From: Hydrogenovibrio sp.
Lineage (GTDB): Bacteria > Pseudomonadota > Gammaproteobacteria > Thiomicrospirales > Thiomicrospiraceae
Assembly (NCBI GenBank): GCA_015484555.1
Contig: WFMZ01000011.1
Span: 1-45,674 of the forward strand
Length of the DNA: 45,674 bases
Direction: 5' to 3'
Shown here piece after piece: positions 16,280 through 27,970 of the stretch (its first letter is position 1; each line of letters begins with the position of its first letter). Made by a program: the position numbers and the translations under genes. The notes beneath the pieces were generated by a model. It saw only the letters and a program-made list of their open reading frames with translations. It ran no database searches and had not been told where the DNA came from.

Positions 16280-16786
16280 TTAGCGAATGCCTAACCCTCT
16301 TACCGCCAATCGATCTTGTGTCAACTGTAGTGTGTTAGAGGGCTTTGCTTTAATCAAATTTTCTTTATGAATAAGATTATGAGCTGCTGGATTGTGCAAT
16401 CCATTCAATCCTTTGCCCGTTTTCTTTTCAGCCAACTTATAAGCTTCATATTCTGATTGTGACATAGTTGGTTGCTTAGGTGCAAGTTGTTCTACTATTG
16501 TATCGGCCAAACCTAGCCCACCTTTAGCTGAGATAGATTGGGATAATTGTTTGTCGTACCAGTCTTTATAAAAATCGGCCTTATCGCTATCTAGCCAACC
16601 ATCATCTAACTTAACCTTTCTGGCTTCTTTTAAAATTTGTTCTACAAATAATGATTCGAACTGCTCTGCTACAGGCTTTAATGCAGACTTTTCATCATTC
16701 TTTGCTTTCATCTTCAAGTCATTTAACGCTTGGGTATCCGTATAAACTTGGTAGTTTTCTAGTTTTCCTGTATTAGCAATAGGCAT
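16280..16786 (-). CDS. flgJ: Single-domain FlgJ rod-binding protein
   Basis: This 168-residue protein contains only the rod-binding/capping domain: VAEQFESLFVEQILKEARK and the segment KADFYKDWYDKQLSQSI. The muramidase/glucosaminidase domain that makes the E. coli and Vibrio proteins about 300 residues long is absent. The frame ends with a normal stop and there is no remnant of that domain before flgK, so this is a single-domain form and not a truncated one. It directly abuts flgI. Confidence 0.9.
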   Translation of the reverse strand: MPIANTGKLENYQVYTDTQALNDLKMKAKNDEKSALKPVAEQFESLFVEQILKEARKVKLDDGWLDSDKADFYKDWYDKQLSQSISAKGGLGLADTIVEQLAPKQPTMSQSEYEAYKLAEKKTGKGLNGLHNPAAHNLIHKENLIKAKPSNTLQLTQDRLAVRGLGIR

Positions 16787-17896
16787 TTAAATCACCATTA
16801 ACTCAGCGGTTAATGCACCCGCCTGCTTTAAAGCTTCTAAAATAGCGACTAAATCACCTGGCGCTGCCCCAACCTTGTTAACAGCCTGCACAATATCATC
16901 TAACGTCACTCCTTTAGGAAATTTAAACATACGACCTTCACCTTCGTTTAGGACGCTAATTTCAGATGCTTGGCCCGTTTTCGTATTTCCCCCTGCAAAA
17001 GGGTTAGGTTGTGAGACGGCCTGGCTTTCTGAAATTTTTACCACCAAATTACCATGGGTTACCGCTGCCGCAGAAACACGAACATTACTGCCAATCACCA
17101 CTGTACCCGTTCTAGAATTAATAATAATTTTAGCAGCAGGCATGCCGCCCTTTACTTCAATATTTTCAATAATCGACAAAAAAGCCACCCTTTGATTAGG
17201 TAAGCGTGGTGCTAATACTTCTATCGAATCTGCATCCAATGCCAAGGCAGTCCCCCCTCCCAGCTTTTTATTAATTGCATTCACCATGTTAGTGGCGGTG
17301 GTAAAATCTGAATTTCTTAGGTTTAAAGTAATGGTATTACCTTGTGCAAACCCATTATTAACGACCTTCTCAACGGTTGCACCACTCGGCACTCGCCCTA
17401 CACTAGGGATATTAACCGTAATCCTTGAACCATCCGCACCAGCCGCATCCAACCCTCCTACAATTAAGTTACCTTGCGCTAAGGCATATACATTACCATC
17501 CACCGCCTTTAAAGGTGTCAATAGTAAGGTTCCGCCACGCAAGCTTTTAGAATTACCCAGAGAAGAAACTGTGACATCAATTTTTTGCCCTGGCTTAGCA
17601 AATGCAGGTAATTCAGCATGAATAGCCACCGCAGCAATATTTTTAGAACCCGACTTTGTACCTGGCGGTAAGTGAATACCAAATTTACTTAACATAGACA
17701 TTAAACTTTGATCTGCATAGGCGGTTTTATCACCCGTACCACTTAAGCCAACAACAAGACCATAACCAATCAAAGGGTTAGACCTTACGCCACCAATATT
17801 GGCTAAATCTTTAACTCTTTCAGCAGAACTATTCATGCTAAAGGTCAATAAAGCCATTAATGCCGTCAATAAGATGACTATTTTTCTGGTTTCCAT
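16787..17896 (-). CDS. flgI: Flagellar P-ring protein FlgI
   Basis: FlgI forms the periplasmic P ring around the rod. A signal peptide (residues ~1-25, ending NSSA) precedes [26 protein letters not shown], the conserved start of the mature protein. The C-terminus ([20 protein letters not shown]) is also typical. The ribosome site is strong (AGGAG 8 bases before ATG). Unusually, it is separated from flgH by 283 bases that contain a terminator and a sigma-54 promoter, so flgI starts its own flgIJKL transcript. Confidence 0.96.
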
Positions 17897-17955
17897 CTCT
17901 TTTCTCCTGGATATAAAGGGAAAATAATTTTATTTTTATAGTTTAAAGGCTAGGT

Positions 17956-17972
17956 AGCAGTTGCTGTGCCAC
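17956..17972 (-). promoter_or_regulatory. Sigma-54 promoter of flgIJKL
   Basis: On the minus strand GTGGCACAGCAACTGCT matches the -24 TGGCAC and -12 TGC boxes with GG and GC exactly 12 bases apart. The predicted start near 17945 gives a leader of about 49 bases to flgI. Confidence 0.85.
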
Positions 17973-17997
17973 TTAACTAAAAAGGGGAAATTAAACT

Positions 17998-18024
17998 TAA
18001 AGAAATAAATAGAACGGCCGATAA
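17998..18024 (+). promoter_or_regulatory. Consensus sigma-28 promoter on the strand opposite flgH/flgI
   Basis: TAAAG, 14 bases, GCCGATAA: an exact match to the FliA consensus boxes at the standard spacing. It points right, against the surrounding genes, with a predicted start near 18031. Nothing that looks protein-coding lies downstream on this strand before flgH, whose end it would read in antisense. Confidence 0.75.
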
Positions 18025-18030
18025 AGACGC

Positions 18031-18138
18031 TTTTTGAAAAAATTGCTAAATTTTAGGCAATAAAAAGAGGCTCGAAGCCTCCAAAGACCAGAAAAGAGAT
18101 AAACAGTATTACTTTGGTCGAGATAATATTGCCTGAAA
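18031..18138 (+). ncRNA. Candidate sigma-28-driven three-way-junction RNA
   Basis: Beginning at the predicted start of the sigma-28 promoter, the sequence can fold into an outer stem (18051-18062 with 18127-18138, 12 pairs including one U-G) that encloses two hairpins. These are 18067-18072 with 18076-18081 (GAGGCT/AGCCTC), and 18086-18092 with 18113-18119 (7 pairs including one G-U). The linkers are AAAA, CAAA and GAGATAA. Both wobble pairs become C-A mismatches if the minus strand is folded, which favours a + strand RNA. No intrinsic terminator follows on the + strand, so the 3' end is unknown and the RNA might run on as antisense to flgH. It exists only as a prediction. Confidence 0.5.
18062..18081 (-). 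terminator. Intrinsic terminator after flgH
   Basis: On the minus strand a 6-bp stem, GAGGCT/AGCCTC, is followed directly by TTTTTATT. It lies about 100 bases past the flgH stop and separates flgFGH from flgIJKL. The same bases form one arm of the predicted + strand RNA. Confidence 0.7.
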
Positions 18139-18179
18139 AAGCCAACTTAAAAGCCCAACTCCTCGTATTAACTGCTTAC

Positions 18180-18899
18180 TTATAAAGGCCAGTACTTACT
18201 TAAAAACTGAGTGACTGCACCAGGTCGATTACTGTCACCAGAAATACCGACATCTTTATAAATTAGACGAACATCAGCTACCTTGGCAGAATCAATGGTA
18301 TTATCTGGTCGAATATCTTCTGGACGAATAATACCCGCAAAACGAATCACTTCATCGCCGTCATGAATAGTAATCCACTTCTCGCCTCTAATCACAAGGT
18401 TCCCATTAGGAATAACTTGCACAACAGTGACGGCAATGGATCCTTTTAAGCTCGAGTTTTGCTTGACGTCTGCCTTTCCCTTAAACTTACCTGTAGAGCC
18501 ATAGCTAAGCCCAATACCCGTTCCAAGGCCCGGAACAGAAACATTTCCACCTGCTATCGTAGCAGAACCAGCTAATTTGCCATTCAAACCATATTGTTGT
18601 GCATTTTGTTTTTCGTATTTAGCCTCATCTTTTTTCTTAGCATCAAATTTCTCTGCCAAGTTAATCGTAATAATATCCCCTATTCTATGTGCCCTTGAAT
18701 CATCAAATAAACTTAATGAATCTCCTGCATAATACAGAGAACCATTATTAGCGGTATTTTTTTCTGGAATATTTAAGGGATAAGCAGGCTCATAACTAAA
18801 TTTCTGCATTCTTTCAGGGGGTGCCGATACACAACCTGCTAATAATGTAATATTAATTAGCAAGGCCAAATTTAATATTTTTGTTTGTGGTTTCATCAT
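18180..18899 (-). CDS. flgH: Flagellar L-ring lipoprotein FlgH
   Basis: FlgH forms the outer-membrane L ring. The N-terminus is a lipoprotein signal with lipobox LLAGC (Cys22 or 23 depending on which of the two initial Met codons is used). Conserved FlgH segments include SLSLFDDSRAHRIGDIITI, SLKGSIAVTVVQVIPNGNLVIRGEKWI and the RPEDI motif near the end. The length of 239 is standard. It follows flgG by 34 bases. Confidence 0.96.
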   Translation of the reverse strand: MMKPQTKILNLALLINITLLAGCVSAPPERMQKFSYEPAYPLNIPEKNTANNGSLYYAGDSLSLFDDSRAHRIGDIITINLAEKFDAKKKDEAKYEKQNAQQYGLNGKLAGSATIAGGNVSVPGLGTGIGLSYGSTGKFKGKADVKQNSSLKGSIAVTVVQVIPNGNLVIRGEKWITIHDGDEVIRFAGIIRPEDIRPDNTIDSAKVADVRLIYKDVGISGDSNRPGAVTQFLSKYWPL

Positions 18900-20720: not shown

Positions 20721-20737
20721 AGCATTAGCCGTGCCAA
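20721..20737 (-). promoter_or_regulatory. Sigma-54 promoter of flgFGH
   Basis: The minus-strand sequence TTGGCACGGCTAATGCT is close to the RpoN consensus, with a perfect TTGGCACG -24 box and TGC at -12, spaced correctly. The predicted start is near 20710. Confidence 0.9.
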
Positions 20738-20803
20738 AATAATAAAAAAAAGATTAAAGCTTTTAAGGACCTAGCCGATATAAAGTTATATAGGAGTATA
20801 ATC

Positions 20804-24136: not shown

Positions 24137-24153
24137 AGCAACCTAAGTGCCAA
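24137..24153 (-). promoter_or_regulatory. Sigma-54 promoter of flgBCDE
   Basis: The minus-strand sequence TTGGCACTTAGGTTGCT has a -24 TTGGCAC and a -12 TTGCT box at exact spacing. The predicted start is near 24126. Confidence 0.92.
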
Positions 24154-24249
24154 CTTATTTTAAAAGGGCTAAAGTTATCTAGAAATGGGCGCTAGTCGGC
24201 AGGAAGATAAAAAACTTTAGGTGTTTTTTATTTTATTTTGAAAGTATTA

Positions 24250-27610: not shown

Positions 27611-27676
27611 ATATAAGTAGAAAGATAGAATTAACTGATTTAGAATAGTAAATCAAACGTGATAGGGGAAAGAATC

Positions 27677-27970
27677 ATGGACATTAAAACCATTAGCGCT
27701 GGCTTATCCAGCAGAGTAACAGACAACAACTCTCAACAGACAAAAACAAACAATCAAGTTAGCAGCTCTACAGCCAAAGGCTTGAATGACAAAGTGACTT
27801 TAAGTTCATCTGTTAAAGACTTAGAGCAAACGGCTAAATCAGCTACCGTTGATAATTCTGCGCGCATTTCAGAGCTTAAAGAATCCATCAAAGACAACTC
27901 TTATCAAGTAAACGCCGAAAGCGTTGCCTCGAAATTACTGGCAACTGAAACCTTAATAGTGGGTGCATAA
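27677..27970 (+). CDS. flgM: Anti-sigma-28 factor FlgM
   Basis: This 97-residue protein fits FlgM, which holds FliA inactive until it is exported through the finished hook. The N-terminal half is polar and low in hydrophobic residues, as for a disordered, secreted protein. The C-terminal part (ARISELKESIKDNSYQVNAE, VASKLLATE) matches the FliA-binding region. I place the start at ATG 27677 (MDIKTI) with the site GGGGAAAG; the frame extends 6 codons upstream to a GTG. It is followed by flgN after 6 bases. Confidence 0.88.
   Translation: MDIKTISAGLSSRVTDNNSQQTKTNNQVSSSTAKGLNDKVTLSSSVKDLEQTAKSATVDNSARISELKESIKDNSYQVNAESVASKLLATETLIVGA

Follow-up and report, generated by a model that had tools for sequence, protein, structure and literature searches.

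The window, the whole 45,674-nucleotide stretch of DNA analysed here, comes from a Hydrogenovibrio-like genome belonging to a group of sulfur-oxidising bacteria. The closest named FlgH, at 76% identity, is from a Hydrogenovibrio MAG (L071), and the other FlgH matches of at least 59% identity come from records titled Hydrogenovibrio, Thiomicrorhabdus, Piscirickettsiaceae, Thiotrichales or Gammaproteobacteria. The minus strand carries flgB to flgL; flgI and flgH were named by Pfam and the remaining flg genes from their translations and order. The earlier placement of a FliA-type site on the plus strand, opposite to flgH and flgI, is supported. Read along the minus strand, the 283-base gap between flgH and flgI contains the flgH 3′ end, a terminator hairpin, a reversed FliA motif and a σ54-type element, followed by flgI. 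The features discussed below are:

16787–17896, minus strand: flgI (PF02119, 442.6 bits)
17956–17971, minus strand: σ54-type −24/−12 element for flgI, TGGCACAGCAACTGCT; 53 bp from the motif start to TGGC
17998–18024, plus strand: exact FliA (σ28)-type promoter motif facing flgH, −35 TAAAG at 17998–18002 and −10 GCCGATAA at 18017–18024
18051–18062: 5′ arm of the outer stem (plus strand, 12 pairs), not conserved
18066–18082, minus strand: intrinsic terminator hairpin after flgH (element A), GGAGGCTTCGAGCCTCT then TTTTATT
18084–18095, minus strand: conserved leader directly before the terminator hairpin, TTTTCTGGTCTT
18086–18119, minus strand: second hairpin of the preliminary description, minus-strand loop UUUAUCUCUUUUC, possibly a diverged element C
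18127–18138: 3′ arm of the outer stem (plus strand), not conserved
18180–18899, minus strand: flgH (PF02107, 179.5 bits)
20721–20736, minus strand: σ54-type element of flgF, TGGCACGGCTAATGCT
20755–20781, plus strand: second backward FliA-type motif (12/13), in the flgE–flgF gap and adjoining the flgF σ54 site
24137–24152, minus strand: σ54-type element of flgB, TGGCACTTAGGTTGCT
24193–24219, minus strand: FliA-type motif in forward orientation upstream of flgB, two mismatches
27659–27970, plus strand: flgM, encoding the anti-σ28 factor

The window motif scored 13/13 against the FliA (σ28) consensus TAAAG, N13–N15, GCCGATAA. The preliminary description had correctly reported an exact TAAAG-N14-GCCGATAA on the plus strand. 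No other exact copy occurs in the window, where 100 shuffles gave none, or anywhere else in the 1.92-Mb assembly. With up to one mismatch, the genome contained 14 matches compared to 10 for the reversed pattern; one-mismatch matches are near chance genome-wide, and near-matches alone mean little. One FliA-like match, at 16500–16526 on the minus strand, lies inside flgJ in the codons of an AKGGLGLADT stretch and was set aside as probably coding-driven.

We gathered 57 distinct flgH–flgI gaps from the family, of which 53 had both genes; the four without a flgH flank were left out of the motif counts, and two gaps shorter than 30 bases were dropped, one ending at a contig end (L069) and the other, of 16 bases, representing a real absence (L071). 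The inverted FliA motif was present at 11/13 or better in 22 of the 53 gaps (mean of 1.4 in shuffles; reversed pattern 0/53) and in 31/34 flgE–flgF gaps (shuffles 0.5; reversed pattern 3/34). Upstream of flgB (32 loci), the motif was inverted in 11 and forward in 20, where shuffles gave 0.5 and the reversed pattern 1/32. These sites share descent, and the counts are not independent. The motif is also frequently missing: 23 of the 44 gaps bearing a σ54 site fell below 11/13, among them two loci of the same genus (L017 and L018) at 10/13. Eight gaps of 31–96 bases have neither a σ54 site nor the motif. In L071, the closest named relative by FlgH, the 16-base gap contains none of these elements. 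At another locus (L022, in G031), flgH is followed by what appears by eye to be a transposase-like gene, with flgI about 10 kb away.

The same motif was found at flagellin loci. Upstream of 30 Flagellin_N loci, a set that includes flgL and one locus cut such that its own start region was unscanned, the forward motif reached at least 11/13 in 14 cases and the inverted pattern in two; four loci had a 13/13 motif, two of them identical, and one G000 flagellin had 12/13. A σ54 match was sought upstream of the same 30 loci and none was found. The consensus likewise precedes two YjfB-type motility genes and one DUF5610 gene, again without a matching σ54 site. Because it is shared by the upstream regions of the flagellin, YjfB-type and DUF5610 genes, the motif appears to be the FliA consensus of this family. 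Of the conservation predicted for relatives' flgH–flgI gaps, the promoter part was supported (22/53), with a match to the flagellin promoter consensus, while the outer stem of the proposed RNA was found in none of the 56 other gaps. Beyond the family, 33 of 321 sampled genomes of the class had a match to the pattern, 31 lying outside it (35 matches compared to seven for the reversed pattern), a count of the sequence pattern in any context.

The distances between the inverted motif and TGGC of the adjacent σ54 element were restricted to 32–35, 41–46, 53–56 and 62–65 bp when flgI, flgF and flgB were taken together (64 inverted sites within 100 bp, 18 distinct distances). These bands are about 10 bp apart, with a vector strength of 0.67 near 10.2 bp on the distinct values, and none of 4000 random draws was as strong. 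Phasing also held for each promoter separately (flgI 0/4000, flgF 0/4000, flgB inverted p = 0.0055), and the 20 forward sites at flgB were phased as well, at 38–40, 48–49 and 59–60 bp. Control elements measured from the same −24 box, the leader of A and A′ and loop C (both described below), were unphased (p = 0.95 and 0.55, respectively). A single flgB site fell beyond the 100-bp limit, at 115 bp. Although relatedness makes the genomes non-independent, there is agreement among three promoters, each with several spacing classes. The fliD promoter of G013 (L299) has a forward motif 14 bp before TGGC, forming a composite promoter that is out of the flgB phase. The phasing points to joint action of the σ54 promoter and whatever binds the motif. 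Polymerase contact or occlusion would account for this, as would an activator. From its recurrence, its phasing and its match to the flagellin promoters, the motif is a conserved site tied to σ54 promoters and most likely a backward FliA promoter.

The preliminary description had also proposed that this promoter drives a plus-strand RNA with a three-way junction. Its predicted fold is present at the positions given, with a 12-pair outer stem (11 Watson–Crick pairs and one U-G), inner hairpins at 18067–18081 and 18086–18119, GAGATAA at both 18096–18102 and 18120–18126, and wobble pairs at 18054/18135 and 18091/18114. Compared to shuffles, the fold is stable on the plus strand (z −4.3) and less so on the minus strand (z −2.8). 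The outer stem, with both arms, was in none of the 56 other family gaps, a genome search for a second copy of the fold gave only a 29-base partial match, and both wobble pairs that had been taken to support a plus-strand RNA fall in parts of the fold absent from relatives. By eye, other closing helices of different sequence occur in L035 (about ten interrupted pairs), L062 (nine) and L068 (seven). Rfam returned three matches for positions 17500–18600, all below gathering scores, and none for 12 relatives' loci. When 26 family stretches were folded on both strands (one further stretch was too short), energy was lower on the minus strand in 22, on the plus strand in three and tied in one; this test is weak because z-scores for the same stretches split 14 minus to 12 plus, and base composition explains part of the difference. 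The window scan found no plus-strand terminator-like site near the fold, as had been noted before. The three-way-junction RNA is not conserved across the family gaps, and with the G-U pairs of the conserved hairpins mostly on the minus strand (see below), a conserved structured plus-strand small RNA was not supported. An antisense RNA towards flgH may nonetheless be made.

Much of this structure is accounted for on the other strand. The first hairpin followed by TTTTTATT resembles an intrinsic terminator on the minus strand (18082–18066), a feature absent from the preliminary description, and a GC-rich hairpin with a T tract occurs on that strand in both the window and relatives; the terminator scan as a whole gave two sites in 4.5 kb compared to 3.4 in shuffles. 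Element A, consisting of the leader TTTCTGGTC, a hairpin and a T tract, was present in 15 of 57 flgH–flgI gaps, where stems differ in sequence and pairing is kept. A related module, A′, in which the leader TTTCTGGTC precedes the flgE terminator, was present in 18 of 34 flgE–flgF gaps (L252–L291), and A and A′ can be viewed as two sibling 3′-UTR modules within one operon. The 12-base leader occurs at the flgH–flgI site in all 11 genomes of the genus; its 13 other matches comprise two flgE sites, two sites on contig G004:C2 and nine elsewhere. G004:C2, which is small and odd, carries broken flgI pieces on both strands together with element A copies and is perhaps an assembly artefact. G-U pairs, summed over all folded pieces with chance pairs included, favoured the minus over the plus strand for element A (15 versus 1), A′ (11 versus 5), B (9 versus 4) and C (57 versus 1). 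Four of the five plus-strand G-U pairs of A′ come from one odd member (L266), and the main A′ hairpin alone, with one G-U in 135 pairs, says little on strand. Element B was found 19 times in relatives' flgH–flgI gaps; it is palindromic around CCAGGCCTGG, its paired flanks vary, and some examples resemble bidirectional terminators. Judged from these comparisons, the folded RNA would be mainly the minus-strand 3′ end of flgH, with a conserved leader and an intrinsic terminator, and may also be released as a 3′-UTR small RNA.

Relatives carry a further, covarying hairpin after flgH, element C, in 31 of 57 gaps, with a loop of about U5-N-UCUCCUUUUU on the coding strand (e.g. L016, L019, L027 and L068); the canonical form is absent from the window. 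In 21 trimmed stems aligned from the 31, 98.4% of cells pair, six of nine pairs change on both sides, and the minus strand has 17 G-U cells and no A-C cell. In 14 of 18 genomes, a stretch of at least 11 nt in the C loop is complementary to the start region of a flagellin gene; counted by flagellin, this holds for 17 of 41 recovered starts, some of them identical, with flagellin recovery incomplete in the 18 genomes. No such complementarity reached 11 nt in 125 flg gene starts from 17 of these genomes (longest 9), nor did the consensus loop find a partner among 45 ORF starts of the window (longest 8). The four genomes below 11 nt were G002 (6), G016 (7), and G009 and G029 (10 each). Flagellin GGAGAG occurs together with loop CTCTCC in G030, G005 and G006, GGAGAT together with ATCTCC in most other genomes, and the G033 and G029 flagellins have GGAGAA. 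In most genomes a non-cognate loop fits almost equally well, the sequences being alike, and it is the three changed cases that carry the weight of the proposed loop–flagellin matching. The second hairpin of the window may be a diverged element C. Among 34 start regions its best duplexes involved those of flgB and flgI and neither of the two recovered flagellins, and the flagellin link is therefore a result for relatives only. Flagellin L342 of the window species retains AAAGGAGATTTATC despite the missing canonical element C, which weakens the case for co-loss of C and the flagellin site.

We propose, with a probability of just under one half (about 0.48), that this locus combines FliA feedback on mid-stage σ54 genes with a flgH 3′-UTR RNA. 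A backward-facing FliA (σ28) site would lie beside the flgI σ54 promoter in fixed helical register; after hook completion FlgM would exit the cell, allowing σ28 RNA polymerase to bind the backward site, damp the mid-stage σ54 promoter by contact or occlusion, and also transcribe antisense through the flgH terminator. The flgH 3′ end on the minus strand would provide the leader and intrinsic terminator and perhaps be freed as a 3′-UTR small RNA. We counted in favour of this proposal the motif frequencies relative to controls, the phasing, the motif at flagellin, YjfB-type and DUF5610 genes, its absence from the eight gaps without a σ54 site, the minus-strand terminator and wobbles, the presence of FlgM in the window, and the C. 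jejuni fliA deletion described below. Counted against it were the 23/44 gaps without the motif at 11/13, its absence from L071, phasing that an activator would also produce, the out-of-phase G013 fliD promoter, shared descent and one-mismatch matches near chance. In sum, the promoter half of the preliminary description stands, on stronger grounds than were available to it, and most of the small RNA half is better assigned to the opposite strand.

The main rival reads the motif as the upstream site of a FleR/FlrC-like σ54 activator of rod/hook genes, with an incidental likeness to a FliA promoter. This possible though unlikely alternative fits a motif that, at flgB, flgF and flgI and whichever way it points, keeps to a single helical side of the −24 box. 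In Vibrio and Pseudomonas, the flgB and flgF promoters are targets of FlrC and FleR (PMC7064773), and FleR is said in PMC8335546, citing others, to recognise the P. aeruginosa flgB, flgF and fliC promoters; because fliC is among these, the motif at flagellin genes does not count out an activator site. Arguing against it are the occurrence of the consensus at flagellin, YjfB-type and DUF5610 genes that have no matching σ54 site, and the bipartite form of the motif, which by eye has σ28 spacing (N13/N14) and no dyad. Extending FliA feedback into a two-strand switch is a somewhat less probable reading still. Here, σ54-driven transcription would free a small RNA from the flgH 3′ UTR, the element C loop of relatives would mask the flagellin ribosome-binding site until late genes are on, antisense RNA from the backward FliA promoter would bear the same flagellin-like sequence and sequester the small RNA, and FliA polymerase in fixed register would also damp the σ54 promoter.

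We consider it improbable that FliA drives a small RNA folded into a three-way junction on the plus strand, even given the exact promoter, the stable plus-strand fold and relatives' z-scores without clear minus preference, since its outer stem is in none of the 56 other gaps, a plus-strand terminator is missing near the fold, the wobbles of conserved hairpins lie on the minus strand and, by eye, the first transcribed bases are unlike among relatives. A plain terminator next to a σ54 promoter, with the FliA-like motif weakly used or functionless, is similarly doubtful: terminators would explain the hairpins, and many σ54-bearing gaps have a motif below 11/13, yet motif recurrence and phasing run counter to it. 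Lastly, a chance match, to which the background level of one-mismatch matches might point, is highly improbable given conservation across several genera and is contradicted by the counts relative to shuffles.

The proposed feedback would give a concrete DNA arrangement, a promoter of late type by its sequence, set in reverse next to a mid-stage flagellar promoter at conserved helical spacing, by which a late σ factor could act back on mid-stage σ54 genes. In addition, the relatives provide a candidate 3′-UTR RNA and flagellin pair in which changes are matched on both sides in a few lineages. Literature searches on small RNAs in the genera concerned returned no papers, and we compared the locus with flagellar systems in other bacteria. 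Feedback of this kind has been reported in C. jejuni, where deletion of fliA raises expression of flgE and other RpoN genes by a mechanism given as unclear (PMC11187230).

In E. coli, UhpU, MotR, FliX and FlgO are σ28-dependent small RNAs (PMC10578931). The window shares with them a FliA-type promoter, and FliX and FlgO derive from flagellar 3′ UTRs, as an RNA from element A would. Unlike FliX and FlgO, which are made from the strand of their parent gene, the FliA motif here faces the opposite way, and the 3′-UTR RNA would come from an operon with σ54-type sites. FlmE (CJnc230) and FlmR (CJnc170) of C. jejuni are also among the closest known systems; FlmE is processed from downstream of RpoN-dependent flgE and represses flgM (PMC11187230). 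The arrangement here is similar in that predicted RNA modules follow flgE and flgH (A′ and A), with σ54-type sites at flgB and flgF and a FliA-type site adjoining. In contrast to the repression of flgM by FlmE, loop C is complementary to flagellin starts, and the FliA site here is antisense.

CjNC1 and CjNC4, σ28 RNAs predicted to act on σ54-dependent flagellar genes, are trans-acting and identical at 37/44 nt (PMC4626219), whereas the sites described here are placed in cis and phased to the promoters. Finally, as in the flagellar promoters controlled by FlrC and FleR, a σ54 site lies between flgE and flgF (PMC7064773); unlike those promoters, each one here has an added in-register FliA-type motif, and flgI has its own σ54-type site.
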